Of a DNA stretch of 64,000 bases, positions 3,848 through 32,480 are shown piece after piece. How positions within the stretch are numbered: the first letter of the stretch is position 1; each line of letters begins with the position of its first letter. The position numbers and the translations under genes were made by a program. The notes under the pieces are model-generated. The model was not told the DNA's origin and did no database searches. It saw only the letters and a list, made by a program, of their open reading frames with translations. Source of the stretch: Argopecten irradians (lineage: Eukaryota; Mollusca; Bivalvia; Pectinida; Pectinidae); NCBI RefSeq assembly GCF_041381155.1, contig NC_091147.1:12029030-12093029 (forward strand), in the 5' to 3' direction.

Positions 3848-5963
3848 CAAAAACACCATGTGTGTATGTTTGTTTATTATTATCATTTTTTTTTTATTAT
3901 TTCTTATCGATTTTGCATACCATATAAAAAGCTGAGTGCCGAATGTTGTTGACTTTTCCCAGAGGGATTTACTATTATAATCGTTTGCATCTTATTCACA
4001 TTTCCCTAAAACAGCAGCACATTTTAATCTTCATAAATGTACAATATCTGTATTATTCTAGTTAACAACGCTATTTAAATTTGTATTTTCAAACGGTTCT
4101 TGACCGGTTCTAATGTACACGTAACAAGTGTCAGCGCTACGCAACTACACAATGTACAGCTACATGTGCGCATGTCTGGCTACTTTGTTTCGTTCTGCAT
4201 ACATTGTGCCTGTATTTACCTTTCATTTACTTCTATCGAATATGTCTTGAATTCTAGATGCAAATCAGATGATAAATAGTATGTTTTACAAAGGTGGCAT
4301 ATTGGTCATACAAATGAACAAGCCTCATATATTAATGTTATACATCTACATCACTCTGACTAAAGGACACGACTGAAGCTAAGTTTTTAGATATATTATA
4401 TATAAATAACAACAGAGAATGATAATGTCCAGTTAATGTCATTTTTTATTAAATGACGAGTAATAACATGGCAGACATGGTAACAACAATGTCAACCATG
4501 CTGCATAAACATTTATACAACTTAAGTAATATATCAATTTAACCAAAAAGGTGTTTTACTGTGACCCCCCAAAACATGTAATGGGCAATTATGACAATCA
4601 TGTACATATTTGTACCTATTTCAGCTTATATGTGTTTGCTATCAACTTCAACTGTATTAATATCCCTTGACGGTTTTTACCAAACATCTGTAATCATATT
4701 GTGTAGATACATCTAATGCTGTGTGATACTGACGACAAAAGTAACTACTAACGTAACCTCAACTTAACCTATCATCGATTCCAAATGTTATAAGCGATCA
4801 ATATGGTGATTAATTAAACCTGTTGTAAATAAAACAAATACTTTATAACATTGACAATATAGTCTGATTGCTTTATTTATATCTTTAATTTAAATATTTA
4901 ATCGTTTGTTCCCCATTATATTTACTGCCTAAAGTTATTTTTTTAAAATGGCAAACATGAATCCAACGAATTATGTCCATGATAGGATCGAATAAATCAT
5001 CCATTCCAAGTGAGTATCTGTTGTAAGTTATGACCAATTAAACAGCATTACGTCACCATCATGATGCCTTATACCTTCCAATTCAAGTGTTTCAATCGTG
5101 AATCCAAACCAGGACTCCGCTCACGTACCGCGAGGTTCGTTTCATTCAACAATCCGTTATAACGCTTGTATTTTCATATAATAGAATAAATACTGTTTGT
5201 GTGGTTTTCTAGTTTTTATTTAATCAGAAAAAAAGTGAAAGTTTTCTCTAGGACAATAGCACATGCATGATCACACTAGAAATAAAACCAGAAGGAAACA
5301 TTTGATGAAAGATATAAAATAGACGTTCGTTGTTCTGTTAGTAAATTAGTGATAAAATAGGTATAACATTAGGTTTGGTGTAAGGGCAATATAGGAATAA
5401 ATAAAAATACACCCGTTTTATATTGGAATGATATAGGGACGTTACTGCTTATATAGTACATGCTTTTCTGGAATTACAAATATTATAGTAACTAACTAAT
5501 GATAACATTACTATATCGCAACAGTAGTGTATCATTTAAATGAAATCACTCCGTTTGAAAGGTAGATTGAAAAACTCGAAACTCATGTGGAAAAAAAAAT
5601 AAGTATCGTTCGTACAACTTTAGCATTATCTGCTTCATCAGAACGGTACTTTGAACGATACCGAGACAACATGAACACAATTATATATAAGCAGTTTCAT
5701 TAACTTAGTATACATATATATTTCTAATTGACAAGGGTGAGGATTAGTGTTGTGTAATGTTAGATCTTTATATAAAAAAATATCTTTTGTAAATTAAAAT
5801 CCCTGTAAGTGTGATATTTACGTTATGCGATGTATGATGCAGCTGTTATTTAACGATTTTTGTTTATACCACACATGGTATAAACTCTGTATGCATTCTG
5901 AATGGCTGCCACGGTGAACTTTGACCGAACTACTTATTTCGTAGTGCAACGTCGTCATTTGTC

Positions 5964-7830: not shown

Positions 7831-10729
7831 TTAAGTAATTTGTCTCCTCGCAAAATTCAGTAAAGCTGTTGTAAGGAATGAAACAAAGACCGAACCGATG
7901 ATACCTTTCGCCGATGTATAATGAGTATATACCCACTGTATTATTCCTTGCTCTTTGAATGACCATTCGATCTCGCCATTATCTTTTCTTATCACTACTA
8001 ATGTATTTTTACAATTACCGGATATAAGACATATGGTGATATTAACAAAATACATTGTAAGTTTACAGTTCTGCATGGTGCCACTTAGCTCTTTAATTGC
8101 CAAACCTTGAGCTGTCCGCAACATCGCCCTTTCTTCGACACTAAGTCTTTGCGCATTTTTCTTTAACACAAAGTTGATTGAACTATCATCGATTATGTTA
8201 CATCTGTAACAGAGATCACAATCTCCCGTAGGTGGTTTTGTCTGAAAAACAATTTAAAACGTGTTTATAACTATTCACTTTTAATATTTAGGATCCATAG
8301 AAGCGTTTAAAAACAAATTATACATCAATTCTTGTCAAATATCAAACTGTATCGATTATTATGAAGCCATGGTGGATTCGCTGGAATATGGATGTATCTT
8401 ATCATAATTTGTACTATAAAAAAACGTATCTTTGTCAGTAGTATTGTTTTAATGGATCGATAATATTTTTTTGTTTAATCGAATATATAATGTAACGAGG
8501 GAGGAAAACATGTAGTCGCCCGATCGATACATTATCGATATATTTTGCTGGAAATACTGTACATTTTATATGTTCGACCACATGTGAGAAGAGTCTTAGA
8601 CTCAATGTGCAATCGAATGAAAATTAAGTCAATTATTATAATTAATATATAACAATGCAACTGATTTGACTAATCCAAAGCATTTGTTATGGGGGATACA
8701 CAAGATGTGATAACACATTTAGAGTGCAGTCAGAGCTTAATCATTAGCATCAATTCAGTCAATGTTACCGTTTATATAGGGATTGGATTGCGCTTTTATG
8801 TTAACCATGCTTGTATGGTGCAATTCCTCTAAGAATATATTCTATGGGGCGCGTTAGCGCCCCTTATTGAATATATTCTTAGAGGAATTGACCATACAAG
8901 CATGGTTAACATAAAAGCGAAATCCAGTCCCTATATTTACACGCGTAAGACTTTTTTTATTTATATTTTATACTATAAAATCGTCATTTGCATTTGACGT
9001 AATTATTCAATAAAAGTCGGTCAAAAGTGGGAGGAGCTTACTCAATTGAAGAGCGAAAGATGACTCTTCACGTTAGGTAGAATTATTCATCCGCGACGAC
9101 AATAAAGTTCAATATTTCATTGTAAAATAAACATGACAAACAAAGTAAATTTCAGAGAAAATTTTATTTCATAAGATTAGAACTTTAAATATATATTAAA
9201 TTTTGCTAAAAGTTAATATATAGCGTAATAACATAAATAATTTGTCTCGGCCAGATGTGTGAACCCGGTGACCGTTTTTGTGCAGCGAGGCGAAGCTGAC
9301 GCACGCTTACACACTGGAGTTTGCCGAAATTGTAAAACACCGATGTTAAAGTAGTCCTAGCTCAACTTTTTTGAGATTGTCGTCTGACTTGACGATATTT
9401 CATTCTTGGGAGCCATGTGATTAAATAATCTACGCTTAGATCCATCGCCATCTACAGATGGAACATTTTCACTTGTGTTCGATGGGTTACAATGAATTTG
9501 TGGTGACGCGTAACTGTCAATACGTGGATTACTAGCGGTGCATGTTTTATAATACACATGATTAAATTCTCAAAGAACAAAGACAAGAGGATATGTTTAT
9601 AACTGACCTCTGTCAGGGGGTCTCACGCCCGTCCACCCCCAAAAACGCGATCGTAGGATGAACACAGACACAGAGGTAATGTTTACATTTGACAGTACTG
9701 CACGTCGCCCCGGTCGGCATATTTTTTCCCGTTTCTTTATATAATTGTTAATTTGAAAAATGTTGGTATCATATATAAATATAAAACTTATATGTATTGT
9801 TTACATTTTCCCAAAATTCTATGAAAAACAGCAATACACGTAATGTTGTGTCAAAACGTAAACAAAGCCATGTGTTTCTTTAAAAAAAAGTAGCCCCTTT
9901 ACGTTGCATAGAACATTTTCATACGCAAGTTCAAAGTTCAATGTTACCATGCAGTTATGGTAAACAAAATCGACTAGTACTTGCGTATAGTGAACAAGCC
10001 TAGCAAGTGTAAATATAGTTAATTATCTGTTGGTCTGGTCCCTTGATTGAAGTTAATTATATACTAAGTCACCGTCCATATAATCAGGTATATAAAGTCG
10101 TATCACTTTGCATGCACCACACTGATGCAACAAATATATAAACGATATTATAATAATAAAACCTGTTTGGATACAAAATAAAACAAAACACTACTATTTA
10201 TATAGAAAATACATATCTTTGTTCGTTCCTGAATTAGCTGCGCTGTGCAATTACCGTGGCCGGGTATTGATTGCAAATAAAAGAATATATTTATCTACAT
10301 GGCAGCCATTGGTTAGGTATGCCATCTAAAAACACTGATTGCACATTATCTCCTCCTAAGAATTGTATTTTGGCACAACATAGACGGTGCTATAGACTCC
10401 TTGTATATATGTCATTTGAAGCAGTTATAAACCTTTTTTGCCAATATCTTAAATTATGTCGACGATTAAATTATGATATATAATGTTATCTTATATGAAT
10501 CTACCGAATATTAGATCATGGATTATAGTTTTATCATGCATAGGGTTAACTACAACATGTGCTAACGGCAAAGACCCGAGTTAGATTGCTTGACTTTCAA
10601 TTGTCTATAGCTGTATACATTCAGTTTTAAAATGTAAACTTGACTCAAACTTGATTTAATAGAAAACTTCGTCTATAAAATGTAATATATTACCTCTACA
10701 GGATCACTGTATGAAACAGAATTCCCCAT
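7831..10729 (-). CDS. X1: small N-myristoylation-type protein of unknown family
   Basis: Minus-strand gene with two coding exons: 10729-10694 within exon 10744-10694, and 8241-7831. Both have clean AG acceptors, and the first has a GTAATA donor. A probable 5' UTR exon ends at 11284. The protein is 148 aa. It starts MGNSVSYSDPVE, which fits the established N-myristoylation pattern (Gly2, Ser6), followed by a C-x2-C-x2-C cluster (GDCDLCYRC). A region predicted by eye as helix plus beta strands follows (IKELS..., KLTMYFVN, TLVVIRKDNGEIEW), then a hydrophobic C-terminal segment ending in a basic tail. It lies head-to-head with Y1, about 800 bp from the Y1 start by coding ATG. The start is chosen because the paralogue X2 shares MGNSV in the same exon position. 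I do not recognise the family. Membrane association is inferred from the lipidation signal and the hydrophobic tail. Confidence 0.62.
8773..8937. mobile_element. foldback element in X1 intron
   Basis: An almost perfect hairpin of about 165 bp has arms of about 80 bp. The left arm contains TTTTATGTTAACCATGCTTG and the right arm contains CAAGCATGGTTAACATAAAA. The centre is GGGGCGC-GTTA-GCGCCCC. No coding sequence. It is inserted in the long X1 intron. Confidence 0.8.
9251..9317. repeat. short imperfect inverted repeat with GCGAAGC core
   Basis: CCAGATGTGTGAACC at one end pairs imperfectly with GCTTACACACTGG at the other. The interior is GC-rich and contains GCGAAGC. It stands out from the AT-rich intron around it and resembles the cores of the other foldbacks here. 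Confidence 0.45.
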
Positions 10730-11283
10730 AATTAATATGGATGTCTGTAAGAAAAGGAAAAGCACACTTATATAAGGTTTGTCTGAGTGGCGTAGAATAA
10801 TTTATTTGTATATATAAATATATCATACGTCATCTATATTTCGCTATATATCGGCTTATAATACCAATTGTAAAATCATACAACTCCATATTTTATCACT
10901 AAAGCATTTAATGCATATTTACCTGATATTACCTTGTAAAGTCAGGGAATACACTTCCAACTGACCCAAGAACAGAACATGTACCAAATGTGATAATGTA
11001 CATTTATCTGATGAAAGAGTTGTTTTCTATTTTCAGTTTTACACGGCATTGGATGACAATGGAACGTAAAAACTTGTGACAAAATTGATACGGTCAGGAT
11101 TGGTATAGGCATTCAAATGTATAACAGTAATGAAAGTAACCGAAATTAGTTGATGGACTGTTTCAAATTATATTCATATAAATATTACTACTGACTAGGA
11201 TAAAAATACAGACAGACCTATTGTACAAAAGAACTTGCTAGGTATAGTGTGTATAAGGTATTATTAACAATAGCACTACCTAC

Positions 11284-11532
11284 CTTTGCAATGTTGTTCT
11301 TTGCCAGGGTAGATTTGTAATAAGGAGGTTACACGTATTTTATATGAACTTACAAGACAATGACATCACGTGGACATGGGCGTTCCTGTTATTCACCATG
11401 GTTTCTTGGCATCCGATCAATGACGACATTTTGTTTATAAACTTGGAACCATAGAGGGTGCTCTTCATATCAGCGACGAATTCGTAATAGATTTAGAGAG
11501 AAATCATTGGATAGATTTGAGGATTAACAATA
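11284..11532. promoter_or_regulatory. shared divergent promoter region of X1 and Y1
   Basis: About 250 bp separates the donor edge of the X1 5' UTR exon from the Y1 start codon. It resembles the same interval of the second pair (25286-25564). Shared blocks include TGACATCAC, GATCAATGACGACATT, AGAGGGTG and a CGACGAATTC block. Conservation of non-coding blocks between duplicated head-to-head genes suggests a bidirectional promoter; this is inference. Confidence 0.5.
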
Positions 11533-12726
11533 ATGAATCTCAGTGATGACCATGGACTAATTGTAAAGGTTAGTAAATGTATACCCCTTATTCTTCGAAC
11601 AGAAATATATCGCCGATTCATCAAAAACATAGTATTATACTATGTTTTCATCGAATAGTTTTCAACCATTGAGAACTTTTCAAAAGCTTATTTTTTTGTA
11701 ATACCTGTTTTCAATTTGATATTGCTATCATAAACCACTTTCATAAAAATACAAAATGCTGAAAATTACGATAATTAAATGTCATTGCCATGCATGGTTT
11801 TTCATAGTTTGGTACATTTTAACTATCGATGATCGAATGTGTCCAACCTAGGGTTAGTTGAATACCCTTCATTCCTCAAAATATTGATCTGGTACCCTGC
11901 TTGTTCAAGTTACATGGGGTTTTACTGGATCTATATAATCTGCACTTTACACTTAATCCAGTATCAGTGTTGAAATATAAATGACCATCTACAGACAGAA
12001 ATAGTTGTGTTTCTGAAGATATCAACGTTGTTGAACAAATGAAATTTACATATCACCAATAACTTATTATTCCATAACTATATTTTATCAAATGTGTAAG
12101 GCTTGTGTGCTTTGGAATTGTTGGCTATGTTATCGTTTTATTTTTTACAGGATGACGTCATCCAGATAAAGAATTTCAATAAGAGAGCAATAGGCCGCAT
12201 CATAATCAAACAATGTGGAAATGAAGGTTGTATAGACAACGACGAGAAAACGAGTATGCGCAGACTACTACAGGAAGTGATCGATTACCTACCAAAACAG
12301 AGTAATCGAGTATGGGAAAATGCTACAGTAACCATTTACGACATCAACGGCAATACACTAAAAATAACAAGTGGAAAGGGGGGAAATCAGTTCTTTGTTA
12401 ACCACAATGATAAAGGTGCAACAACCGTATATCCAAAACGATTAGAATGGCGGAGCATTCTCTACAAGTCCTTTGAAAGTTTTCAACGATTCTTGCTCTT
12501 CACCCAGAATAAATTTAACAACACTCCATCTTCATCTGAATCAACCGTAAATAAATACACATCAGGATGGATGAAAATTCCCGTCAAGATCATAGAAATT
12601 GGTTGCCAATTGTTATACTCAGTCAGGAATAAATGTAAATCGTCTACATCTGAAGATGATAACAAAACTGACACCGAAGACAGTCCAAGTCTTTATTATG
12701 ATGATGAACTTATTCTTATGCACTAA
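11533..12726 (+). CDS. Y1: uncharacterised protein, partner of X1
   Basis: Two exons, 11533-11568 (MNLSDDHGLIVK) and 12151-12726, join in phase 0 with a GTTAGT donor and TTTTTTACAG acceptor, giving 203 aa. The paralogue Y2 has the same exon structure. The conserved core includes LGRI/IGRIIIK-C, CGNEGCID, a helix around RRLLQEVIDYLP, then NATVTIYDINGNTLKITSG and QFFVNHNDKG. This helix-plus-strands order resembles X1, suggesting distant common ancestry. Y1 is longer than Y2 because its C-terminus holds an internal repeat: LLFTQNKFNNTPSSSES is echoed by LLYSVRNKCKSSTSEDD. The tail is acidic (DDNKTDTEDS). No signal peptide or lipidation motif is seen. The family is not recognised. The 3' part of exon 2 is the start of a 1034-bp tandem duplication. 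Confidence 0.66.
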
Positions 12727-14487
12727 GCGGCATATTTGCTTGAATATAGATCAACTACATGTTTGATTATTCTATTGAATATGAAATATTGTCCATGTGT
12801 TCATTGTGATATTTGTGGTTAACCGGCCGAAACTCTGTAATATTAACATTATGTGACATTAAATATTGCATTCGGTACATACATGATCTGTTGCTTTTTT
12901 ATTATTTAGTCTAGAGAACAACTCATGCTCATGTTAAGTACATCGGTGATGCTCCGTAAATCTAGTAAATTACGCGGTAGTTTGGGTAATTTGAGCTAAA
13001 TGAAAGATTTAATGATATATTTACATATGCCCCTATATAGTCAACGGGAGGGGAGTTGCGTTCAAATTAGCGTAAACGCAATGACGTATGAATACAAACG
13101 CAGTGCAGGTTCGGACTACTTCAAGTTCACGCTTCGATAAGATTTTGCGTCATAAGTTGACGGATTTTAAAATAACAATAAAGAGTTTTTATTAGATCCA
13201 ATTAAATATGTATTTGACATCAAAACAAAACATGTGTTCAAGCATTGTAACGGTTATAAACTACAAAATGAATCGCTGGTCGGGGCTACAACAGGGGGGC
13301 TTTCCTCAGGATGTTCGGGGAATCCCATATGCATAGTTACGTCAGATGCACATGTGTGTACGGTCACTCCTCTCACCTAAATATACAGAACATCTGATTG
13401 TCTGTGAATAATTCTGGGAGCGTCTAAGCGAACAATAGGTTAACGGATCATGCAACAACCGTATATCCAAAACGATTAGAATGGCGGAGCATTCTCTACA
13501 AGTCCTTTGAAAGTTTTCAACGATTCTTGCTCTTCACCCAGAATAAATTTAACAACACTCCATCTTCATCTGAATCAACCGTAAATAAATACACATCAGG
13601 ATGGATGAAAATTCCCGTCAAGATCATAGAAACTGGTTGCCAATTGTTATACTCAGTCAGGAATAAATGTAAATCGTCTACATCTGAAGATGATAACAAA
13701 ACTGACCACCGAAGACAGTCCAAGTCCTTATTATGATGATGAACTTATTCTTTTGTACTAAGCGGCATATTTGCTTGAATATAGATCAACTACATGTTTG
13801 ATTATTCTATTGAATATGAAATATTGTCCATGTGTTCATTGTGATATTTGTGGTTAACCGGCCGAAACTCTGTAATATTAACATTATGTGACATTAAATA
13901 TTGCATTCGGTACATACATGATCTGTTGCTTTTTTTATTATTTAGTCTAGAGAACAACTCATGCTCATGTTTAGTACATCGGTGATGCTCCGTAAATCTA
14001 GTAAATTACGCGGTAGTTTGGGTAATTTGAGCTAAATGAAAGATTTAATGATATATTTACATATGCCCCTATATAGTCAACGGGAGGGGAGTTGCGTTCA
14101 AATTAGCGTAAACGCAATGACGTATGAATACAAACGCAGTGCAGGTTCGGACTACTTCAAGTTCACGCTTCGATAAGATTTTGCGTCATAAGTTGACGGA
14201 TTTTAAAATAACAATAAAGAGTTTTTATTAGATCCAATTAAATATGTATTTGACATCAAAACAAAACATGTGTTCAAGCATTGTAACGGTTATAAACTAC
14301 AAAATGAATCGCTGGTCGGGGCTACAACAGGGGGGCTTTCCTCAGGAATGTTCGGGGAATCCCATATGCATAGTTACGTCAGATGCACATGTGTGTACGG
14401 TCACTCATCTCACCTAAATATACAGAACATCTGATTGTCTGTGAATAATTCTGGGAGCGTCTAAGCGAACAATAGGTTAACGGATCA
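12417..14487. repeat. 1034-bp tandem duplication covering the Y1 3' end
   Basis: Unit 1 is 12417-13450 and unit 2 is 13451-14487. They match almost base for base, with roughly six to ten differences noticed, including an extra C in a coding run, an extra A near 14346 and a few substitutions. Each unit begins TGCAACAACCGTATATCC inside Y1 exon 2 and runs through the 3' flank to a GGTTAACGGATCA end. High identity implies a recent event, or an assembly duplicate. Confidence 0.93.
13453..13747 (+). pseudogene. truncated 3' copy of Y1 exon 2
   Basis: The tandem duplication created a second copy of the last ~100 codons of Y1 without promoter, exon 1 or splice acceptor. Relative to Y1 it carries an extra C in the AAAACTGACC run (about 13706), shifting the reading frame of the acidic tail. 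It probably is not translated as a separate protein, although its transcript could be read through from Y1. Confidence 0.8.
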
Positions 14488-15208
14488 TATACAGGTTTCC
14501 AGAAAAAAAAACAACATTACAGGTAGCCTATCCGAAACAGTATCATCAGCTAAATGGCCCCGTCTTTGCATTCAAAATAGACCTACACACACGCAAACAC
14601 TTGTCTATCCTCCGTACAATAAAATAAAAGTCATGACATATGAAGAATTTAGTGTATATCGCGTTCTTAGACCGATACATATACATGACAAACATTCAAC
14701 AGCTCAACGGTCATACCATCAATAGGCTTTATCACAGTCACTTTCCTCGGTTGAAAATCAAATATGGCGGCTCGCTCCACTTCGGACCGCATCACTACCC
14801 TGACAACGATACATACCGGTAGACTTTCCGCCTTGGTTATCTAAATTTTTATTCGAAATGGACATTATTCATATATATTATCAAATTGAGAAAAAAATAT
14901 ATGTTGAAAATCATTGAAAAGTGTCATTGTTGTATTTCAACCCAAACTGCATATGTCTGTACCCCATTGCGTTCATACCACCTTTAACGCAATCAAAACA
15001 CTGTTCAATCTCTATATAAATCAGTGTTGTATCATTAGAAGATCACAGTTTCCTTACATATATCACTTCACACTGGAAAGTGTCTGAGGTCCCTGTGTGT
15101 GTTTTGAAGGTTACGGATGGCCCTGAGGGTGTGGCGTTAGAATAGTATCTGCTCCCCCTATGGCATGAAAGGCGACCACTTCCTAACTGAAAAAATGAAA
15201 TTGATATA
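14488..15208. other. gene-free stretch
   Basis: AT-rich DNA between the tandem duplication and the MITE. A GC-richer block near 15100-15180 (GGCATGAAAGGCGACCACTT) looks like a dispersed repeat fragment of unknown family. No supported gene. Confidence 0.4.
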
Positions 15209-16227
15209 CAGTGGGAACCTCCTGAAACCGATCATGGTCGGTGCATATAATTTTCGGCCGGTTTAGAGAGGGTTCGGTTTGGAGAAGTGAACCGAATACC
15301 GATCATCACGATCCGGATTTTAATCGATCGGAAGTCGTTTTTTTTACATTAGTGCACCGCATCTATGCCTAGTGTTCGTTTAAACCGACCGATATTGATT
15401 GTTAATGTGAATGTTATCACAAAAAGAGAGAATCATACGTTTAAAAGGAATGGATTACAGCAAAACTTGACTTTGTTACCGCTTAAAATAAACGTAGTTT
15501 AGTTAGTTAGTTGCGTGAATGTTCTTGAGGATGTTCTCGGTCTGCAACCTACATACGACCTATCGCTTCCGGTTAGGTCAAGAATCAAATTATAATATGG
15601 TCTAATTACAACAACACGATGATCAGTCGATGCTGGTCATTATATGACATAGTTCATTTTCTCTAAAACAATACATGGCTTCGGCTTCTTCATACAGATA
15701 ATTTACGTTATCCGACAACTACATATGTAAAATAAAAAAAAAATCGTGTGATTTGAATACGAAACTTTTCTCTTTATTACTAGTCCTCTGCTTCTTTTCC
15801 TACAGTAAACAAACTCGCGTGCACATGGTAGACCTTCGTTAGATATCTAAACAATAGGCATGATTTAAATAATTACACACCACCATATCGGGAATAATTA
15901 CCGTGTACCTATAGCCTTCACAGCTGTATACATGCCCAAGGACATGGTATGCAACAACTATGGTACAGGTACATGTACGTGTGTATTTCACGGTCGGTTG
16001 ATCAGACCTCAATGCAATCTATCGGTGTCGCTCAGGTAAGGCCGGTTTTCAGCAGTGTATTTTAGTTACCTTTGGACTATTCCGATCTCAAAATCGGTCC
16101 GGTATTCGGAATTGGGAGGGATCGGTTTTGGGAAGTTTTATATACTATTAATAAAGAGGGAATTCATTCCGTACATGACATCCATGTTCGGTTTCTAGAG
16201 GTGATCGGTTTTGGGAAGTTCGCACTG
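15209..16227. mobile_element. Tc1/mariner-type MITE, about 1 kb
   Basis: Terminal inverted repeats CAGTGGGAACCTCCTGAAAC and (right, reversed) CAGTGCGAACTTCCCAAAAC lie inside TA dinucleotides at 15207-15208 and 16228-16229. TA target sites and CAGT ends are the established signature of the Tc1/mariner superfamily. Subterminal copies of a TCGGTTTTGGGAAGTT-like motif occur at 16110-16135 and 16202-16220. No transposase reading frame is present, so it is non-autonomous. Confidence 0.75.
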
Positions 16228-16594
16228 TACTATGTTAATTTCAACTTCATTTTCCAACTACAATGGTAATAGATTGTTATATTTTTTTATAAATTAAATA
16301 ATGAACTACTAAAACCAAGTACGCTTTTTTATGCACAATGACTGTTTACATATTTGCCAGCAAAGAATAAACATGCACATTTAGTTTGATGTTTTCGAAA
16401 GCACTGGACTAAGATGATTTACTCTCAAAACATAAATAGTATTTTTTAATATTTGATTTGATAAAAGAAAACTTTAAATTGGAAATGAGTCCATGTATGA
16501 TTTAAATATTTCAGGACAAGTTGCTGTTTGTTCAATATACTAAGTTTTAAATAGTCATAGATTTAATGAGTTTGCGATCATTTATTTTTGTTTC

Positions 16595-16752
16595 CGTGTT
16601 ATCACTTTGAAGTACAGTATTAATTACCTACAATTGCTATTAACACCGTTTTACGACACAATGGACATACACATAACGTATGTTATATGTAGCATGAGAG
16701 GTGAAATTGTTGCGGCCCGGACCGATGGTTTTAACACATGATACATCTGCGC
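16595..16752. repeat. dispersed or segmental repeat, copy 1
   Basis: Shares AAGTACAGTATTAATTACC, TTAACACC, TACGACA, GCATGAGAGGTGAAA-like and GGTTTTAACACATG blocks with 28888-29060. Both copies lie a few kb downstream of a Y gene, so they may mark the edge of the duplicated X-Y unit. Confidence 0.6.
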
Positions 16753-19700
16753 GATGATCTATCCGACCAGCTACCTGGACGCCGATGACTTAGACAGTCC
16801 AGTTCCTTTACATTATACACACTACAGAACGTGATGATAACTTTTATTGACCACAATTATTCTCTTAATTTTTAGATAATTTCCTTGGATGTAAAAACCG
16901 AGGCTTACTTTTCAAGTGCGCGCGGCTATTTTTAAAACTGACATATTTTCAAGATAAATTTGACTGTAAGATGCCGCAAGGCTTATTTTAAAAAAAAACT
17001 TGCCGATTTAGGCTTATTATCGAGGCCCTTTTAGGCTATCCAATACAGTTTCCAAACTTCTGTATTAATCTACAAAATACCGGGATTCATGTTCATGGAG
17101 GACAACCATTCTAAAAAACATAGTTACATGCAATTTACATAATAATAGATATATAAGATGTGCCAATATATAAACCGTTTATAATATTTTTTTGAGATGT
17201 ACAAATCGAAATAACTTAACAATACAATTGGTTATTCGCCATAGTGTTTACATAAAAAAAAAACTAATCTAAATATTCGTAAGGTTATGTGTCCATTACT
17301 GCTATGTATGGTGTTTGGGGTAATCTCTTAATATACATTTGTATGCGGTATTAAGGTAGGTCAGATTATATTCAACACATATTTTATTAGAAAACGCTGT
17401 GCTTACGTGGAAATTCAAAATATACTACCATTATCGAAACGTGACCTTGAACCCTATATAAATGTAAAGGCAGGCTCATGGTTTGTTGTGATTTCCTAGT
17501 AAAGATACCCTGCATTCACTGAACTAATGAATAAATTACTATGCACTCAATACTGCAACAACGAAAACTGCCACCCTAAACCTCGCTATGTTTTATGTTT
17601 GGCATTTTCTCATTTCGTTTTTTTAAATGTTCCTTCTCTTGCCATTCAAACGTTTTTTGTTTTTCAACTATGCATTTTTTTTTCAAGGCCCTATATCAGC
17701 CAATGAATAGCAAACCAGTATAAAACACTTTGATTGACAGAATTAAGTCATTTGCAAATACGTTTATATAAAAGAATACGCAAAATATTGGTTTGACTTG
17801 TGTTTGTCGGTAATTTGGTCCAGAGCAGCCTTGTCCTTTCGATACTACTTGTTTCGTGGAAGTCATAAAACACAATGAAAATATAGTTTGTAAGGTTTTA
17901 GTTAAAACTATTGATATTTTACTCCCTCAGGTTCTATATCAGCAAAAGCGTTATAAATATATGAAACAATTTGTTGTCCGTTTGAAAGAGTTGTATTATA
18001 CATAGGACATTTCCATTTCTGTCATTTACCTTCTTTAAATTGTTCATCTGATATCAAACTTGGTATATTGACTAGGACTATACTATTGAGAATCAACTAA
18101 GGAATGCAAAAGAAGGAAAAAAATGTGTTTTTAACAAAAACGCATGATTTCTTAATTACGGGACCCAGGGTGATATTTAGTTATGTCCTCAGAAGAGAGT
18201 ACTCTTTGTGACCAGAATGTATTGACAATTTGCTGATCCATTCAGTTCATACATGACCATATATGAAATCCAGAATGTATCACATTGCAGAATGATGTAC
18301 CATTAAGAATATGAGGACATCCGCATGTTTTGGGGTGTTTTTAGAAACTTTAGAAGATGATAAATGCAACATAAGCCTTCAGATGGAGTAACAATAGACT
18401 TAACATGGTTGTTTTTTCAAAAAGTATAGATCTTCTCCATTTTTAATATTTTACCCCCGAGAGAAAAACGAATATTTAAGCATTAATTCTTTCAATATAT
18501 GCTAAATTATAATACCATTATTCTTCATATTCTTTTTGAGGTTAATGAACACATAAGACAAAACAGAAGCGAATCGAGCAGTTTACATATGAATTAAATA
18601 TTTATATGTGTGTATTATCTTTCTAGAGAATGTTAAAGTCATCGTCGAAACATAAGTGATGATGTTTGAATACCCTGTCGGCTCTCTTTCATTAAATGAT
18701 AGGTTTTGAGTGATCCAGAGAGGATTGAGTTTTAATATTTTAAGAACATACTTACAGATATAATGTAAGATTTAATAAAGTCCAAGTCCAATCATAGATA
18801 TCTTCTTTTATGATATTTGAAACTAGAATCATATATGTAGCAACAGCCCCCTCCTGTAATTTTGTCCTAAGCCTTTGCTAGCAGATGGATTTAAATCAAG
18901 GGTAAAGTTGGCCAACGTTCGGGAGAAGACTCAATTAACGGAGTACACTATTTAGCAGTTATTAACTAGAAATAATTAAAACCCCCTAAAAAAAAAAAAA
19001 AGGATAACCATGACGTTTTTTTTAAAAACCCAACATTAGCAATAAGGATTCTAATATTTTCTAAGAAAATAAATTTGAATAATGGAGTGAACAAGTCAAA
19101 TATGTTTTGAGGGAAAATTCCTGTGTTATTTAAGTCGAGGACAATAAAGAAAATGGAAACGAAAATAACCCTGTTTGAGATTTGGAATGGTTTAGGGGAC
19201 TTTGCTGCTTCTGTCGAATTTAAGCACAAACATTAATCTTGTTAAAACTAATTAATCAAAACTTAACTCAACTACATTGCAAGCAGTACTATATTATATA
19301 AATGTAAATTGAAAATCACTTCGTTTCGATGCGAGAGATATTTTAGGAAAAACCTCGAAACTCGTCTGGAATATATATCGATCGGACAATTATCCAACAT
19401 TTTTGCATTATCTACGTCATCCGAACGGTAATGAGCAGGGTACACCAACCCAAGAAAACACAAGAAAACAATTTTCTGTGGAAATCAAACAAAATTACAA
19501 ACAATATTTATAAATTATTACCTTGCGGGCGTGATGACTAGTTGAATAGGTAATAATGTAAGGTGTTCATCCGCGGATAATTCGCCCCTTTTAATGGCAA
19601 ACAGGTGTGTGTACAATTTAACTTGAGTATAAAAGTGTTTGAAAAATTAAGCTCCCGTATAAAGTAGCAAATACATCAAATATGTATTACCAAAAATATG

Positions 19701-20321
19701 ACGAAAGCACTCACAATAGCAGTATCATAACTAGATCCCAACGTCCTCCGTGCAAATCGGTCATGGGTCCTAAGAACAGAATTAAAACGGATACCCTCAA
19801 CCGCGTCCATGGCGCTCTCGTGGGGAAAGTTAGATATTAAACAACATCCGTCATGGCGGCTGGCCCACGAACAGGAGTTTTGCCGGGGGTGTACATATGG
19901 GACACGTACTATCAGAGACTTATTAACACAACTCAACTGACCCAAACAGCAAACCGGCGAAATCGTGCCCGACGACATCGTCCTTCCCGCCAAAAATGCG
20001 CAAGTTAAACAAAAGTCCCCGCATACGTTCTGACTTACACACCGTCTGTGCTCCCACCCTACTCAGTGCCCAAGACAATGAATTTTAATGAATAATATGA
20101 TCTTTACAATAGCAAAGTACATTGAAGTGTATATAGAATACATTCATATTACAGATAATGTCACAAAGAGATACAGAACACCAACCATTAGCTATATGCC
20201 ACTAGGAGATACAGCTAGAGCGCATCACCTCGAATCAACCACCGCCCAATTCTATTTTTATCCCGTGTCCCACATCCGTTCGCCAGGCTTATGCACAAGA
20301 CGCCACGACCATAATACGCCT

Positions 20322-20352
<31 letters not shown>

Positions 20353-20362
20353 CCCCCCCCCC
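20322..20362. repeat. poly-C tract
   Basis: Forty-one bases are all C except one T at 20350. Such a tract may adopt unusual structure and is prone to length error. Confidence 0.95.
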
Positions 20363-21877
20363 GCGGATATTCGAGCAGAGAGCTCTTAATGATTAATAAA
20401 TACTACGTAATTGCAAAGTACAAAATATTACCGTCAGACTCTAAGTCCCATCAACCGGTGATTATGACAACATCATTTGATTTGACGTGGCTGTTGTGAC
20501 GTTATAATAATCGGAAAGTGGGACTAATTGACGATAAGTTGTACTTTACCCACGTCGTTTTAGGATCTCGAAACCTCCGGGTTGTCCTAAAGTGTACGTA
20601 TCAGCTCTATGCGACAGCTGTTGTCAGCGACTCGTAGGCAAGGGATGTGTGTCCCCCTTTGGTGTTGATTGGCTTTCCAGCCATGCAAGTCGTCCATCTA
20701 AGCTCTGTAGCCCTTTTCATTCCCCCATTCCCATGGTCCTATATTCGATGTCGCACACCATTCTGATTGGTCGAATCTATGACATCTACGCAATGAGCGC
20801 GGAACATCTTCCGGCAACGCATTTATATCCTGTAGTCTCGACAGTAACACCAAGTTTTACCATAAAAAATAAGGATAAAAAACAGAAGCATGCTCGACAT
20901 GTATACGGCATCATACTACAATTTACAAATACTTCCAATATTTGTTAAACCAAAGAAAAATGAAAATTACATATCTGAACTGCAGTCGAGTTAGAAAGTG
21001 TCCAAATAATACCTGCTTTGTCGAAATATTTTCACAAACCTACCATCCGGAAAATGACAAAACAATCACTACTCAAGCCTTATAACACAATGTGTCTTAC
21101 CACACAAGAAACATTGCAAAAAGGTTTAAAACTAAATTTATCCCAATAGCCCAGATATCATACTGAACATATGAAAACCAACGTCTCTTCTCAGCTTTTC
21201 ATTTTGCAATTACCTGTCCTATTTTCAGCATAATGTGACCGCGTTGAAATGAAACTCGCTTGACTGATTGATCTGGCAAATGGTTTTGCATCTTAATGCT
21301 ACTATTCAATCAAAGATTACCGCCGCAATCGCTACATTGAAAACACTTTCTTATTTGTTACTCATCATAATTTCCAAAATCCCATCACCATAGAACCTCA
21401 AATATTTTGTCAGATGACCGATTTTTTTGCCCCTCCACACATATCAAGAACAACTCAACAACTAAATGAAATTGAAATGGCCACCCCAAAAAGGGCGACA
21501 TTTAAATTTATTTAAATATATCACCATATGGATTAAAACAAGAAATAACGATTATCAATGCAAAATACAAATCAATACAACTAAAGAGTAACATTTTATC
21601 ACAATTAAGTTAGCCTAAGTGGTTATCCATTCGGTTTCTTGTTCATATTGTACTGTATATATTAATGAAATATTTTTTTGTAAATGAATCCCCATCAAAT
21701 TATTGGCAATAAATTGTAATATTTAAAAGTGGAAAAAAAACCGAATTATTTATAACGATATAAATGCTTCAAAAGAAAAAAATCGTTTATCCAAAAGGCT
21801 GCTGCCAATGCAGTACATGTGTATTGTATTACATATATGTTTCATTACAGTTTTCACCAATTTATGTTTGTGTTGTA

Positions 21878-23739
21878 TTACATGTCCAGCATCCCAAAAA
21901 CTCCCTTGATTCCCTTCGCCAATCCTAATAAAAGTGAAAGAACGTTGACTATCTTACCGATGTTGGTAATGAGCCATTTACCAAATGTATACAACTTCTG
22001 TATCTTGCCTTCCTGGGCGAATGTCCACTCGGTCCTGCCATTATCTCCTCTTCTCAATACTATTCTATTCCTACAGTCGCCGGATCGCAGAAATATGACC
22101 GTTTTATCCAAATACATTGCAAGCTCGCAGTTCCGCATGGTATTACCTATCTCGCCAATGGATGATCCCTGGGCTGCCCGCAACATCCCCCTTCTCTGCG
22201 TCGCTCAAACTGTGGGCATGTTTTACTAACACAAAGTAGATTGAACGATCATCGATTATGCTACATCTGTAACAATGTTTGCATCCTGTTGGTAATGGTG
22301 TTATCTGAAACAATGCAATCTAAACTTGTATGTATGTAACGATTCAGAGTGTAAAAAGTCGCTCAAGAAATTTGAAATTGCGATGGATTAGATTGGTTTA
22401 TTATTATTATTTTATTAGGAGGGGGAGACTCAATTTTCGTGTTGGATTAAACCATCATATATTGATATTAAAGTCGTCAAAAAGACCTTACATTATACAC
22501 AATAATTTCTGAAATGCTGACTACGTGTAGTTAATAATCCATCGTCCTTATAACCGGATCCTTTAAGCCATGTGTTTTTGCATGTACAGTACTAACGCAA
22601 CATATTCATGCGCGATAGATAATTGCATTTGAGTTTGGATACTCCCTGATAAACACTGATGCGTATGTGAAAGCAACTCAATTTTGTTCCTTAATACGTC
22701 CCGAGTGATGGAAAATCATGTAATAACTGACTTACTGCATGTTTCTGAACATCGAACAAAACGACGGGTTGATTTGAAAACATTCTCACATTTCCACTCT
22801 CCGTTTGATTTACCTATAATGTTCGGTACTATGGATTCTTTGCTTAATATCAATATGCCAGTTTGTGGGTCATTAGTTATCGTAAGACGCACAATAGTGT
22901 TTGTCATGTGTGGAGATAAAACGTTTGACTTTTTCAGAGGATATGAAACAATTGGATTATTATAAATGTCTGTTCAAGGATTGGTAAATGAAAAACAGAA
23001 ATTGTCTGAAACCTCAAATGTGTAAGTACATTGTTTTTAAAAAATCAATCCCATCTGTATTTTCGATTGATGGAATGCATACATCAATATCAATAAGGCA
23101 GTTATTGCATGACGTCTCGTCACTCGGGATTTATTACATGTACCCCTTGCTTCGCTCGGGAGTAATAAATCCCTTATCACTTGAAAGCCATGTAATGACC
23201 TTTACTTGTATCGGAATTCCGTGGCTCATGTGTGGCGACTTCCCATGAATAAAACAGACAAAACAAAAGATCCACCAAAGTCTTAACCTCGGAAGACAAA
23301 GACTTATTCAAAATACATCGATTGTGTAATCAACTCATCCATTGAAATATATTTTGGCACAGTTAAGACAGCGTCATTATAGTCTATAGGTTTCTGGAAT
23401 GTTATGTGAAAAAACTATTAGCCTATTCTGCCAATATTCGCAATTACTTCGACGATTCGATTGCAAATTGGACGACGTGGTTTATTTTAATACATAATCT
23501 ACATAAACATAATTCAAACAAAGGGCATAACATCGGACAATTGATGTATATCTGCGTCATAAAAACGGGTCGGTGTAGCTTGCATATAGGTTAACTTCAA
23601 TTATCGTGATAATATTTAAATCAGCCGGAGTTTCAAAAAGTCTAGTTTGTAAAGGTTACAAAAGTAAAAGTTATATTGAATATATTTATATAGTTTTATT
23701 ACCTCTACCGGATCACTGTATGAAAACAGAATTTCCCAT
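21878..23739 (-). CDS. X2: paralogue of X1, apparently frame-broken
   Basis: Minus-strand exons match X1: exon 23754-23703 containing ATG at 23739 (MGNSV), and exon 22314-21878. Conserved features are the myristoylation-type start, CKHCYRC (C-x2-C-x2-C), CELAMYLDK, GDNGRTEWTF and a long hydrophobic or amphipathic C-terminus (LYTFGKWLITNIG..., VLSLLLGLAKG). Compared with X1 there are two apparent one-base gains, both in homopolymers: the A run at 23723-23726, just after MGNSV, and the C run at 22187-22191 (G on the coding strand). Splice sites are intact and sequence between the breaks is conserved in protein terms. Either the gene is a young pseudogene or both gains are sequencing errors. A probable 5' UTR exon ends at 25286. 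It lies head-to-head with Y2, mirroring X1-Y1. Confidence 0.55.
22315..23702. other. X2 intron
   Basis: AT-rich intron of about 1.4 kb between the two coding exons. It contains a foldback at 23120-23186 and otherwise no supported gene. Confidence 0.5.
23120..23186. repeat. small foldback with GCTTCGC core
   Basis: GTCACTCGGGATTTATTAC on the left pairs with GTAATAAATCCCTTATCACTT on the right (imperfectly). The centre holds GCTTCGC, the complement of GCGAAGC found in other foldbacks of the window. Confidence 0.6.
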
Positions 23740-24011
23740 TTTAGCTCTGGATGTCTGTAAAAAGTAAACGAAACGATTTGATATGTTAGTAAAATTCAAT
23801 AATACGTGTGTACATAGATTTTTGTATAAAATGAAGTTTGCAAACTTCTGTATTCTGCTATAAAATCCAACACCTATAGACACTGAATAATTTAATGCCA
23901 TTCTGTCTAATTGGTACTATAATGTGTATAAAGTTATTAAACAGTACTGATGAATCTCTTAACTTTAATATTATTGTTGTCTACATTGTACCTCATACTA
24001 AAATGTATTTA

Positions 24012-25073
24012 CAGTTGTGTGACCGCACAACGTTACACGATATGCGGTTGTGCGCACGATGTGCGGACGATGTGCGCACGATGTATGCACGATGTGCGGT
24101 CTGGGCGGTGTGCGCACGATGTGCGGTCTGGGCGGTATGAACGTTAACGGTGTCTGGGATATAGTTATCGTGGTTGATATAAATTTAGGAATTCAATTTT
24201 ATTGTGTAAACATGCGAAACGATGATGGGGTTTTAATGTTACTGTATTGAAGACACGGTAGATCTAAATGTGATATATAAAGGATATCCATTAAATAATA
24301 AATATGTATTTTGTTTTGTTTTGTTTACTTGACAATTTACGTACGTGATGCTGCTAAACAATCTACTGTACCGGCTAATTAGGCCTTAACAATGTTGATT
24401 TACTACGTATTTAATAAACATCTTCAAACTTTTTTTAATTGTTACCTTGAATAATATTTCAGTTTTAAAATTTGATTGTATATAAATAACTAAAATAAAT
24501 CATATAATTTTTTTTAAAGCAGGGCAGCTTTAATAATCAAAACTATGTACATATGCATGTAGCTACATTTATTCTAGCTAGATTATGGGTTTCACCAGAA
24601 ATTTATATAGTATTTATCTAAATATCTTTTTTAAAGTACGTTCATCCAGGTAACCACATCCTTTTCTATACTAAATCTGTTTGACTAGAATTTATACCTG
24701 AGCCAGGATATTAGTTAAATTGAAGGTAAAACAATCCATGATCAGAGGGCAGATTTAGGGTCAGAGCGGCGAAATACATATACAATAGCTAACTATATAG
24801 ATGTATATATAATGTAGGTAGGTTTGGGGTTTTAAACAGAAATTAACTTTTAGATTTAAATATAATTAAAATGACAGTACAAGTAAATTAGACTCATCAA
24901 CATGGTCAGTTTATGGAATGATTTCGCAAATTTGATTGACCGATCGTCCCGATTGCACATGTACAACTGTGCGGTACGGACCGCACAGCTGTGCGGTATG
25001 CGATCCGAATCGCAGCAGATGTGCGGACGATTTGTGCACGCAGTTTTTGGTACATTGTGCGGTCACACAACTG
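24012..25073. mobile_element. Tc1/mariner-type MITE, 1062 bp
   Basis: Perfect inverted ends, CAGTTGTGTGACCGCACAA on the left and TTGTGCGGTCACACAACTG on the right, are flanked by TA at 24010-24011 and 25074-25075. Subterminal GTGCGG-rich repeats occur at both ends, while the middle is AT-rich. No transposase is encoded. It sits in the 5' intron of X2, upstream of the X2 coding exons and 0.5 kb from Y2. Confidence 0.8.
24047..24135. repeat. GC-rich subterminal tandem repeat
   Basis: Repeated GCACGATGTGCGG units, with a 27-bp double unit containing GGTCTGGGCGGT, lie inside the left end of the MITE. Open frames predicted here in several registers are repeat artefacts. Confidence 0.8.
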
Positions 25074-25285
25074 TAGTTATACATATATGTCGTATTGGTT
25101 AATTACAATGATTAAACTTATCAAGGGTAGAAAAGCCAAGTTCAGATTATTAACACATGCGTGCATATCGCATCATCAAAATTATGATATAATATTCTAT
25201 TAATTTCGTATTAGAAAATACATGTTGAACATAAACTGTTTTCACTAGTAGTTTTCAAAGTAGTATCATATATAGCGCTACATAC

Positions 25286-25564
25286 CTTTGCGATGTTCTT
25301 CTTCTGCTAAAGTAAATAAGAAAATATCACACTCATAAATGTGACATCACCTGCATATGTGTATAGAAAACGGAAATTCCTGACATTGCATGGACATATC
25401 TATAGACTTTGGACTTTGGACATTGCTTCCATTGTGGATTTCCAACAATCATGATTCTTGGTGTCTTGCTATTTGATCAATGACGACATTGTGTAAATAA
25501 ATTTAGAGTCAAAGAGGGTGTTACGCAGATCATCGACGAATTCTTAATAATTTGTGGAGTAAAA
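25286..25564. promoter_or_regulatory. shared divergent promoter region of X2 and Y2
   Basis: Counterpart of 11284-11532. It keeps TGACATCAC, GATCAATGACGACATT, AGAGGGTG and CGACGAATTC. It also holds GGAAATTCC at 25372-25380, which fits the NF-kB consensus (GGRNNYYCC); pair 1 lacks an equivalent, so that site is weak evidence. Confidence 0.45.
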
Positions 25565-26501
25565 ATGATGGAACCCAGTTATGACCAAGATGTAACTGTA
25601 AAGGTTAGTAAATGTGTGAATAATAATGTTCGAATCTAGATTGTTATTAAAAATATTCTTTGGTAATTATCAATATATTCTATACTTTGCATCAGATCCA
25701 TCACAAGTGTTGAAATCTATATGACCATTTCGGTGAACAAATTTTAAATTAGCTGCGTTTCTGAATATACCGATGTTGTTTTATAATCAATAACTTTTGA
25801 GACGGGCTGAAACTAACACGGGAATCAGATGTGATAAAAACAAACGGTACTATTGACAGAGGAAGAGAAGCATATTTTGTTGACTCAGCAAAATAAATGA
25901 CAGAAGCCGTCTAACAGCCTGCTAGTATATTTGTTAGAAAACGACCACTATTACACTGGGCGATTGATTTGGTAAAATTGGCATATATTGTGTAGAACTA
26001 CACGTTACATATATCTATTTCATCAAATATGTATAGCTTTAATTTTCTGTCTTTTAAATTATCGCCTACGGAAACATTTTAAACTTTTGACAGAATGACG
26101 TCGTCCATATAACGGAATTCACTAAGAGAGAACTGGGACGAATTATAATCAATGAATGTGGAAATGAAGGTTGTATAGACAGCGATGAGAAAAAGAGCAA
26201 GCGCCGACTACTACAAGAAATGATTGATTACCTACCACAACAAAATCATCGAGTGTGGAAAAATGCTACAGTAACCATTTACGACATCAAAGGCAATACA
26301 CTTGAAATAACAAGCGGAAGCGGTGTATATCAATTCTTTGTTAACCACAATGAGAAAGGGGAATCGACTGTATACCCAAAACAATTAGGATGGATGAGCT
26401 TTATCTACGCGTTCTTCAAAACAGTTAAACAACCGTTTTCGAAGAAAGCAATTGGATACACTCCGTCTTCATCTGTAGAAGATAACGAAAGTAACAACTG
26501 A
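25565..26501 (+). CDS. Y2: paralogue of Y1
   Basis: Two exons, 25565-25603 (MMEPSYDQDVTVK) and 26094-26501, join in phase 0 and give 148 aa. The frame is intact. Shared with Y1: GRIII, ECGNEGCIDSDEK, RRLLQEMIDYLP, NATVTIYDIKGNTLEITSG and FFVNHNEKG, then YPKQLGWMSFIYAFF. It ends soon after TPSSSVED and lacks the C-terminal repeat of Y1, so this short form may be ancestral. Either of two adjacent ATGs (25565, 25568) could start it. Head-to-head with X2. Function unknown; no transmembrane segment or signal peptide, although a short hydrophobic stretch follows the conserved core. Confidence 0.66.
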
Positions 26502-30219: not shown

Positions 30220-32480
30220 CGAGTGGTTACGAGCCCTATCTCCTGCCTTCACAATGTATGATGTTTTTTTGTCTTTTATCTCGGCCAGTATCCATGATTT
30301 GCTGGAGTATAATCGGACTGCATCTCCAGGATTTATGTCTCCTCTTTCCTTAGTACCTCTGTAATAATAGTGTTTTCTGCTTCTGTCTATAGTCCATCAG
30401 TTTTGATGAAACGGACGGTGACGGAGAGTGGTTTTGCTTGGGTTGTCTCAAGCTGTCTGTGATGGGTAGTAATGTTTTCCCTCGGCGTCCATCAAACGCT
30501 GGATAGGTGACACAAGAGTGTTCCTCAAGTCTAACAGCGCTGTGCAGATATCATCCCCTGTCGCTGCACACTTTTTTATTAAATTCCTGACTGTTTGTGC
30601 CGTTGGCTTGCTGGTGTTCAGGAGATGACGTAATGTGGTCAATGTTGTATGACTTTGTAAATGCTGTGAATTCAGCACTTGGAAACAGTAGCCCGTTGTC
30701 GCTTATCGATGTGTATATAACCCCATATCTAGCAATGTTCTCTTTAATGTGTTTGATCACGGATCTTGTAGTTGTGTACCTTTGCAATGCGGCTACATCA
30801 ATGAAGTTTGAGTAGTAATCAACTAGCACTAAGTAGTTGTTCCCATCTATTTCGCACAAGTCAGCAACAACCTTACTCCATTGCAGTGATGGTATTGGCT
30901 GTATTATCATTGGTTCACGGAGTGGTTTGTTTCTATATTTCAGACACGCACTACAACGACTTACTACGTTGTCAATCTGTTTGTTCATAGAAGGCCAAAA
31001 TCCAAGTTCTCTCGCCCTCTGTTTATACTTTACCATCCCCATGTGAGACTTCTGAATTACCTTGAGGGTTTCTTAGTGATTGTTTGTTGAAAGTTCATCT
31101 CTGCAATTCCAGTATGGGAGTGCCTTTGGTAGTAAGACATCATGCCTATTTTCTGGCCAAACCTGTTGAATCATCTGCTTTACATCTTGTAATTCTTTAT
31201 CTGTTTTCGTCGCTTCCTGAATGTTCTTGTGATTCAAGTGTGACAATATGTCTATGGTATCATAGCATCATCATCTCGTCATCCATCGTTTTTTTCCCTA
31301 TTTCCTCCAAAGGTAACCTGCTCAGACAATCGGCAAGTCCAATATTTTCCCCTTCGGTTAATACCAGGTTAACCTCGGATGGCTGTAACTTCAACATCAT
31401 CCTTTGGATTCGCATTGGAGCAATATGAATTGGTTTGCGCATAATACTCTCGAGTGGTTTGTGATCCGTTTCAATGGTGACGTCCGATTTCCCGTATAAC
31501 AAGTAATGAAACCGTTCACATTCAAATACGACTGCGAGCATTTCTTTCTAAATTTGTGCCTATCGTTGTTCTGTCGGCGATAATGCTCTCGAAGCGTATG
31601 CCACAACACCCTTCTTTCGAATTATTGCTGCACCCAACCCCTCATGGATGCGTCGACCGTCAGTTACAGATGTTGCTTGTCGTCATAGTATTTCAACACC
31701 TTTATTGACGTCAACGCGGCTTTGACGTCGTCGAATGCCTGTTGTGTTTCTGCCGTCCAATTCCATTCTTTTTATTGACGCAGCTCACGGAGTGGTGCGT
31801 TAAAGTTAATCAGATTAGGAATGAACTTTGATAATATGCTAGCATACCCAGTATTGTTATGCGTGGTTTTCAGGATCCCTCATGTTGACAATAGCCTCAA
31901 CTCTCTCATCTGTGGGTTTGATGCCTTCCGCAGTGAGTTTATGATCTGCATGGTTCACTTCCGGTTTCGCATTGGTACATTAGGATTTGTTTAGTTTCAA
32001 GTTTGTTGCTCGAGCTTTGCCAGAACAGTCTCTAACCGTTCATTATGTTGTGTCAGAGTTTGTCCATGCACTAAAAGATCATCCACAACAATTTCTGTAC
32101 CTTCTAGACTACCAAAGTGATGGAATCAAATCTCTCAGAGAACACTTCACTAGTACACTTTGTTCCATTTTGGCATGCTCAGCTGATCGGTACGTCAAAT
32201 GGTTGACATTTATATGTAGTAACTCTCACGCAAGTCTCATTTTCATAATAATCCCCTCAAGTTGGTATCTAGCGTAGAGAAGCTCATCTGTATCCCAATG
32301 CGAAGCCTGTGTACATGATGTCATCAATACAGTATTCATTGCTTGGCTCAAATCATTGACGGATCAATGCAAAACAATCGTACGCGGGGCTTTTTCTTAC
32401 CTGACCACAAAACCAAACTGTTCACCCATTCAGAGGGGTTTTAATTTTTCAACTGAGGTATTATAGTCGAGTCCTAACCA
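30220..32480 (-). mobile_element. fossil of a Ty3/Gypsy-type LTR retroelement (partial pol)
   Basis: A decayed, partial element on the minus strand. From 5' to 3' of the element, the recognisable parts are reverse transcriptase (about 32.4-31.8 kb), RNase H (about 31.6-31.3 kb) and integrase with a zinc-binding region and catalytic core (about 31.05-30.5 kb). The order RT-RNase H-integrase is that of the Ty3/Gypsy group. No flanking long terminal repeats were recognised. It is broken by at least several frame disruptions and looks old. Decayed sequence of the same type may extend to about 33.4 kb. It lies between the X3 and Y3 relics. Confidence 0.8.

Follow-up and report, generated by a model that had tools for sequence, protein, structure and literature searches.

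The 64-kb window analyzed here, positions 12,029,030 to 12,093,029 of contig NC_091147.1 (C14, 39.2 Mb) of the Argopecten irradians genome, contains two divergent gene pairs, P1 (X1-Y1) and P2 (X2-Y2), in each of which a minus-strand X gene lies to the left of a plus-strand Y gene. The open reading frames (ORFs) bear out this head-to-head arrangement, which was proposed in the first-pass annotation, and are located at 7831-8253 (minus strand; X1), 12100-12726 (plus strand; Y1), and 26091-26501 (plus strand; Y2), with X2 represented by 21878-22204 (minus strand) and an overlapping frame reaching about 22304. The favored reading, to which a probability of about 0.5 is assigned, is that X and Y are two homologous, lipid-anchored subunits that would be coexpressed from a shared promoter and form a mixed membrane complex. 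This reading is based on the divergent layout, the resemblance between X and Y, the occurrence of pairs at three places in the genome, the Met-Gly (MG) starts of four X groups, the CaaX boxes of the Y copies on contig C15, and purifying selection on Y.

Searches of the genome (845.8 Mb, 1508 contigs) with X1 and Y1 yielded 12 X-type and 9 Y-type matches, which gave 10 X and 7 Y loci after split frames were merged. These counts exclude a partial copy of Y1 (13428-13736) and, on C149, a weak X match interrupted by stops (E value, 0.017). All seven Y loci face an opposite-strand X gene in the head-to-head orientation. In addition to P1 and P2 on C14, five pairs are present outside the window in two clusters, both on C15, with P3, P4, and P5 at 15.26 to 15.32 Mb and P6 and P7 at 6.90 to 6.91 Mb. 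The three clusters are related by descent and are therefore not independent draws. The five additional pairs and the Y1-Y2 and Y6-Y7 omega intervals, both of which lie below 1, argue that the window pairs did not arise by chance, and the distribution of the loci suggests that the X-Y pair has been carried as a unit.

The same exon structure had been proposed for both window pairs, and this is borne out by exon models predicted from splice signals and from comparison between copies. The X plan common to P1 and P2 consists of a noncoding exon, a short MG exon, and a main exon, and the common Y plan consists of an exon with 12 to 13 codons followed by a main exon. In X1 (minus strand), the noncoding 5' exon at 11284..11330 has its 3' end defined by the donor GCAAAG/GTAGGT and a guessed 5' end, and the first coding exon at 10694..10744 (acceptor CTTACAG, donor GAG/GTAATA) opens at an ATG at 10729 with the myristoylation-like sequence MGNSVSYSDPVE. 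The X1 main exon at 7831..8241 (acceptor TTTTTCAG/ACA), which is the last coding exon and holds the stop codon, encodes the conserved domain and a C-terminal hydrophobic segment, as judged from the ORF, its hydropathy, and a low-confidence model. Y1 (plus strand) starts with an exon at 11460..11568 (5' end guessed; donor AAAG/GTTAGT), of which 11533-11568 encodes MNLSDDHGLIVK, and continues into a main exon at 12151..12726, defined by its ORF, that encodes the conserved domain and a C-terminal extension without a CaaX box and includes the stop codon. In P2, the noncoding 5' exon of X2 is at 25286..25330 (minus strand; donor GCAAAG/GTATGT; 5' end guessed), its first coding exon, recognized by comparison with X1, is at 23703..23754 with an ATG at 23739 and a frameshift following MGNSV, and its main exon at 21878..22304 is split across two frames by a frameshift relative to X1. 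The first exon of Y2 is at 25520..25603 (plus strand; 5' end guessed; coding 25565-25603, MMEPSYDQDVTVK), and its main exon at 26094..26501 encodes the conserved domain and the stop codon, again without a CaaX box.

The short shared upstream region described in the first-pass annotation corresponds to a putative divergent promoter region that is conserved between P1 (11290..11532) and P2 (25292..25564). The start codons are separated by 804 bp in P1 (10729 and 11533), by 1826 bp in P2 (23739 and 25565), and by 878 to 1600 bp in the other pairs measured (P3, P4, and P6). The donor GCAAAG/GT of the noncoding X exon is conserved in P1 and P2 (11289 and 25291), and the two sequences can be aligned from this donor to the Y start codon, including the block GATCAATGACGACATT, which is identical over 16 bases, and, farther on, an AT-rich, TATA-like site. 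Compared by blastn with the P3 or P6 locus, P1 matched only in the main exon of Y and, outside the genes, along a single 38-base stretch. A motif scan covered the intergenic regions of P1, P2, P3, P4, and P6, with the expectation taken from 100 rough two-base-block shuffles of each. GGAAATTCC has one site in P2 and a weaker related site in P1. TTCNNNGAA, counted over both strands, occurs four times in P3, four times in P4, and six times in P6 versus 0.9 to 1.1 expected, and is absent from P1 and P2; given the roughness of the shuffles, an immune promoter is not claimed. The intergenic regions of P3 and P6 share a block of about 205 bp, which was dismissed as a repeat, because it lies within an element with GATGCTCCACC-like ends (by eye) and part of it matches 53064-53185 in the window. 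This short element, which by eye resembles a miniature inverted-repeat transposable element, separates the two start codons in P3 and likewise in P6, at about 4703-5060 in locus L032 and about 3468-3780 in locus L034.

Profile comparison suggests that X and Y are paralogues that have diverged from each other. An hhalign comparison of the X and Y profiles gave an E value of 2e-4 and a probability of 46 to 47%, and the addition to X of three members of a distant group, termed Z, gave an E value of 2.8e-6 and a probability of 88%. The X/Y profile scores were 41.6 with Z and 30.1 without it, compared with maxima of 21.1 and 24.4, respectively, in column-shuffled controls (200 each), and thus the comparison beat all 200 controls both with and without Z. 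Members of Z are located at C9:43951841, C9:42600342, C15:28638651, and C15:28630164; three have open frames of 125 to 184 amino acids, of which two, judged by eye, terminate in hydrophobic helices. Fold models of X1 and Y2 are alike, which is not independent evidence, since both were built from one mixed X and Y alignment.

N-myristoylation requires a Met-Gly start and a small residue at position 6, and the X starts fit this rule. The first coding exons begin with MGNSVSYSDPVE in P1, MGSSNSR in P3, P4, and P5, MGNLLSSP in P6, and MGLCGSKE in two of the three copies of X8, an X type found without a Y. The resulting starts MGNSVS, MGSSNS, MGNLLS, and MGLCGS share the pattern MGxxxS in the four groups with an intact exon, with the small residue at position 6 present in X1, X3/X4/X5, X6, and these two X8 copies; no MG exon turned up for the third X8 copy (L036) in the stretch scanned. 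The CaaX box, a prenylation signal, consists of a C-terminal Cys-aliphatic-aliphatic-X. The Y proteins end with KKRSTGGCVMS in P3 and P4, KKGSRGFCVVS in P6, and KKGNRGFCVIN in P7, which combine basic residues with a CaaX box, and in the frameshifted Y of P5, one of the frames likewise ends with CVMS. CaaX boxes (CVMS, CVIN, and CVVS) are thus present in Y copies of both C15 clusters. X7 (L015, 1117-1881, minus strand, at C15:6.90 Mb) has a C-terminal run of repeats around NPWNAQQHQMPIQ that none of the other listed X ORFs showed.

Judging from the coding sequences, Y is under purifying selection, with an omega of 0.34 for the Y1-Y2 domain (bootstrap interval, 0.16 to 0.69; 96 codons) and 0.16 for Y6-Y7 (0.04 to 0.48; 105 codons). 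Y3 and Y4 differ by two synonymous changes and no amino acid changes, too few for bounds, versus eight amino acid-changing differences between X3 and X4. In a tree of 15 rows, in which 6 of the 12 inner forks are weak, Y forms one clade (100/100), and Y1 groups with Y2 (100/99) and X1 with X2 (81/75). The summed end branches are 1.76 for X1/X2 versus 0.53 for Y1/Y2, and X8 forms a long branch.

Neither family had been recognized from the window alone, and the profile-based homology and structure searches recommended at that stage identified no family over cut-off for either gene. None of the 13 proteins scanned against Pfam scored above a cut-off, four proteins each had no match in NCBIfam and PADLOC, and the best E value for four proteins against PHROGs was 0.033. 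Sequence searches of the PDB gave best E values of 1.4 (X1) and 0.99 (Y1), and the X profile had no match there; a hit of the Y profile to cohesin (E value, 0.0091), covering part of the domain, was judged to be due to chance. A fold search with the low-confidence Y2 model gave best E values of 0.11 (PDB) and 0.039 (BFVD), with none at 0.001, and was not used. A viral or prokaryotic origin was set aside, as tblastn detected no relative of Y or X in viral contigs and none of Y or X1 in prokaryote genome contigs. The literature searched contained no description of these genes or of the family.

In the proposed scheme, the divergent paralogues X and Y would descend from a single ancestral gene, whose product would have been a small cytosolic protein with a domain made of two helices and then a series of strands, and they would be coexpressed from the shared promoter. 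X would be tethered through an N-myristoyl group, supplemented in X1 and X2 by a hydrophobic C-terminal segment, and Y through a prenyl group or, in the window copies, through an aromatic C-terminal extension. Together they would assemble into a mixed complex at the cytosolic side of a membrane, in which Y would be the constant and X the variable subunit. The most likely role would be that of a membrane-proximal signaling or defense component, a suggestion based solely on X changing faster than Y and on varying copy number, and an immune role is a guess. Type IV collagen genes (COL4A1/A2, A3/A4, and A5/A6) are likewise head-to-head paralogues that occur as pairs on several chromosomes, with a shared promoter such as is proposed for X-Y. 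The likeness to X-Y is one of arrangement and not of kinship (no sequence relation was sought or seen), and collagen chains are part of the extracellular matrix, whereas X and Y look cytosolic. In heterotrimeric G proteins, G-alpha is myristoylated and G-gamma is prenylated, which parallels the N-myristoyl group on one subunit and the C-terminal prenyl group on another proposed for X-Y, likewise without implying kinship. However, Pfam detects no GTPase or G-gamma domain in X or Y, and the anchored G-protein subunits are not homologous to each other, whereas X and Y appear to be. X and Y combine a family without a match in the libraries searched, divergent partner genes, and anchor motifs at opposite ends, and they provide a clean system for asking whether shared promoters keep subunits in balance and a concrete candidate membrane complex in a TNF-rich animal.

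Several observations weigh against a coexpressed, jointly inherited complex. No common promoter block stood out in a five-way alignment of P1, P2, P3, P6, and P7. The resemblance of Z alone to Y is weak (E value, 0.0063; probability, 6%), the X profile matches single Y sequences with E values of only 0.09 to 0.92, and the fold models of Y2 and X1 are of low confidence (mean predicted local distance difference test scores of 57 and 50). Y1 and Y2 lack a CaaX box and have longer tails instead, and a scan of 3 kb did not reveal the first exon of X7. The omega intervals of the X comparisons include 1, at 0.41 for X3-X4 (0.10 to 1.87; 128 codons) and 0.59 for X1-X2 (0.29 to 1.19; 68 codons; X2 is perhaps dead). 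Y6 and Y7 are 93% identical with a synonymous divergence of 0.15, compared with 31% identity and saturation for X6 and X7, and therefore P6 and P7 are not simple whole-unit duplicates; similarity between the two loci ends a short way upstream of the first exon of Y. At these loci, Y alone was therefore duplicated or converted, leaving X behind, and this speaks against strict coinheritance. No Y was found upstream of the one Z locus checked. Nor was one found for the three X8 copies, two on C502 and one at C15:24.72 Mb, either with Y queries from two clusters (E values up to 1 or 10) or with a Y profile run across about 10 kb at each copy. Among themselves, the X8 copies are 97% alike in their main matches; one has a stop and another is split over two frames. 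At the X8 locus L035, an ORF resembles a retroelement RNase H by eye. Damage also affects the pairs themselves, as X and Y of P5 are each split over two frames. X2 is present where it was first placed, but it is not intact as assembled, having two frameshifts relative to X1, one in the first coding exon and one in the main exon. The frameshifts in X2, P5, and X8 and the X8 stop may result from base-level assembly error. Other copies are intact, and no frameshift was seen in the exons read in P1, P3, P4, and P6, with the X6 splice frame depending on an inferred acceptor. The earlier proposal that partners are retained jointly through duplication thus holds for the seven Y loci, each with an X, but not for the frameshifted X2, for P5 with both genes frameshifted, or for the three X copies without a detected Y.

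Some of these observations would fit an alternative in which the divergent pairing is only a relic of a single ancient inverted duplication, with the products acting separately as membrane-tethered paralogues and short-range duplications copying both genes. X copies and a Z locus without a detected Y, the differing histories of X7-Y7 and X6-Y6, and the apparent loss of X2 beside an intact Y2 are all consistent with this view. However, a Y locus without X was found in none of the seven cases, and the pairing was kept across C14 and C15 despite synonymous sites that are saturated or nearly so, which makes this explanation possible but doubtful. An antagonistic pair, in which X would harm or permeabilize membranes through a hydrophobic, membrane-inserting tail and Y would restrain X and release it on challenge, would account for the lack of any Y found without X, for the longer branches of X, and for the C-terminal hydrophobic 19-mers of X1 and X2 (mean hydropathy, 1.76 and 1.75). 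It is unlikely, as the best 19-mers of X6, X7, and X8 reach only 1.0 to 1.2, those of X6 and X8 being inside the domain (the X3 value, being out of frame, was dropped), and a strict poison-antidote system would not tolerate the intact Y and broken X of P2 or the three X copies without Y. A related suggestion, an undescribed animal innate-defense module with a fast-changing, myristoylated, membrane-inserting X held by a conserved, prenylated Y and released onto membranes, is regarded as quite improbable.

The neighborhood of P1 and P2 had been taken as a hint of a role in cell death or immunity, since both are flanked by TNF ligand genes, with TNF matches near 3.4 and 41.8 kb in the window and ORFs similar by eye near 46.6 and 59.4 kb. 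This setting would suit a pair of TNF-pathway adaptors retained in a TNF cluster for joint regulation. However, of the 19 TNF matches listed for the genome (PF00229 domain), not one lies on C15, which carries five of the seven pairs, and no X or Y match adjoins the remaining C14 groups of TNF genes, at 11.92 to 11.94 and 12.10 to 12.11 Mb. X, Y, and the TNF ligands share a 64-kb stretch of C14, but none of the listed matches falls on X or Y. The hint is accordingly weak, a TNF-linked function was rejected as the main interpretation, and an adaptor pair is very unlikely indeed. Tandem growth of TNF genes on one chromosome is reported for a clam (PMC8905726), which makes the TNF setting of the window appear ordinary, and the proximity of the pairs to TNF genes is probably incidental.

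Two further features of the window were observed. The partial copy of the 3' part of Y1 (13428..13736, plus strand) stems from a tandem duplication of about 1.04 kb (12417-13450 and 13451-14488), and the units across 12417-14488 are 94 to 100% identical. At 30551-31072 (minus strand), an ORF resembles a fragment of a retroelement integrase, as named by eye.

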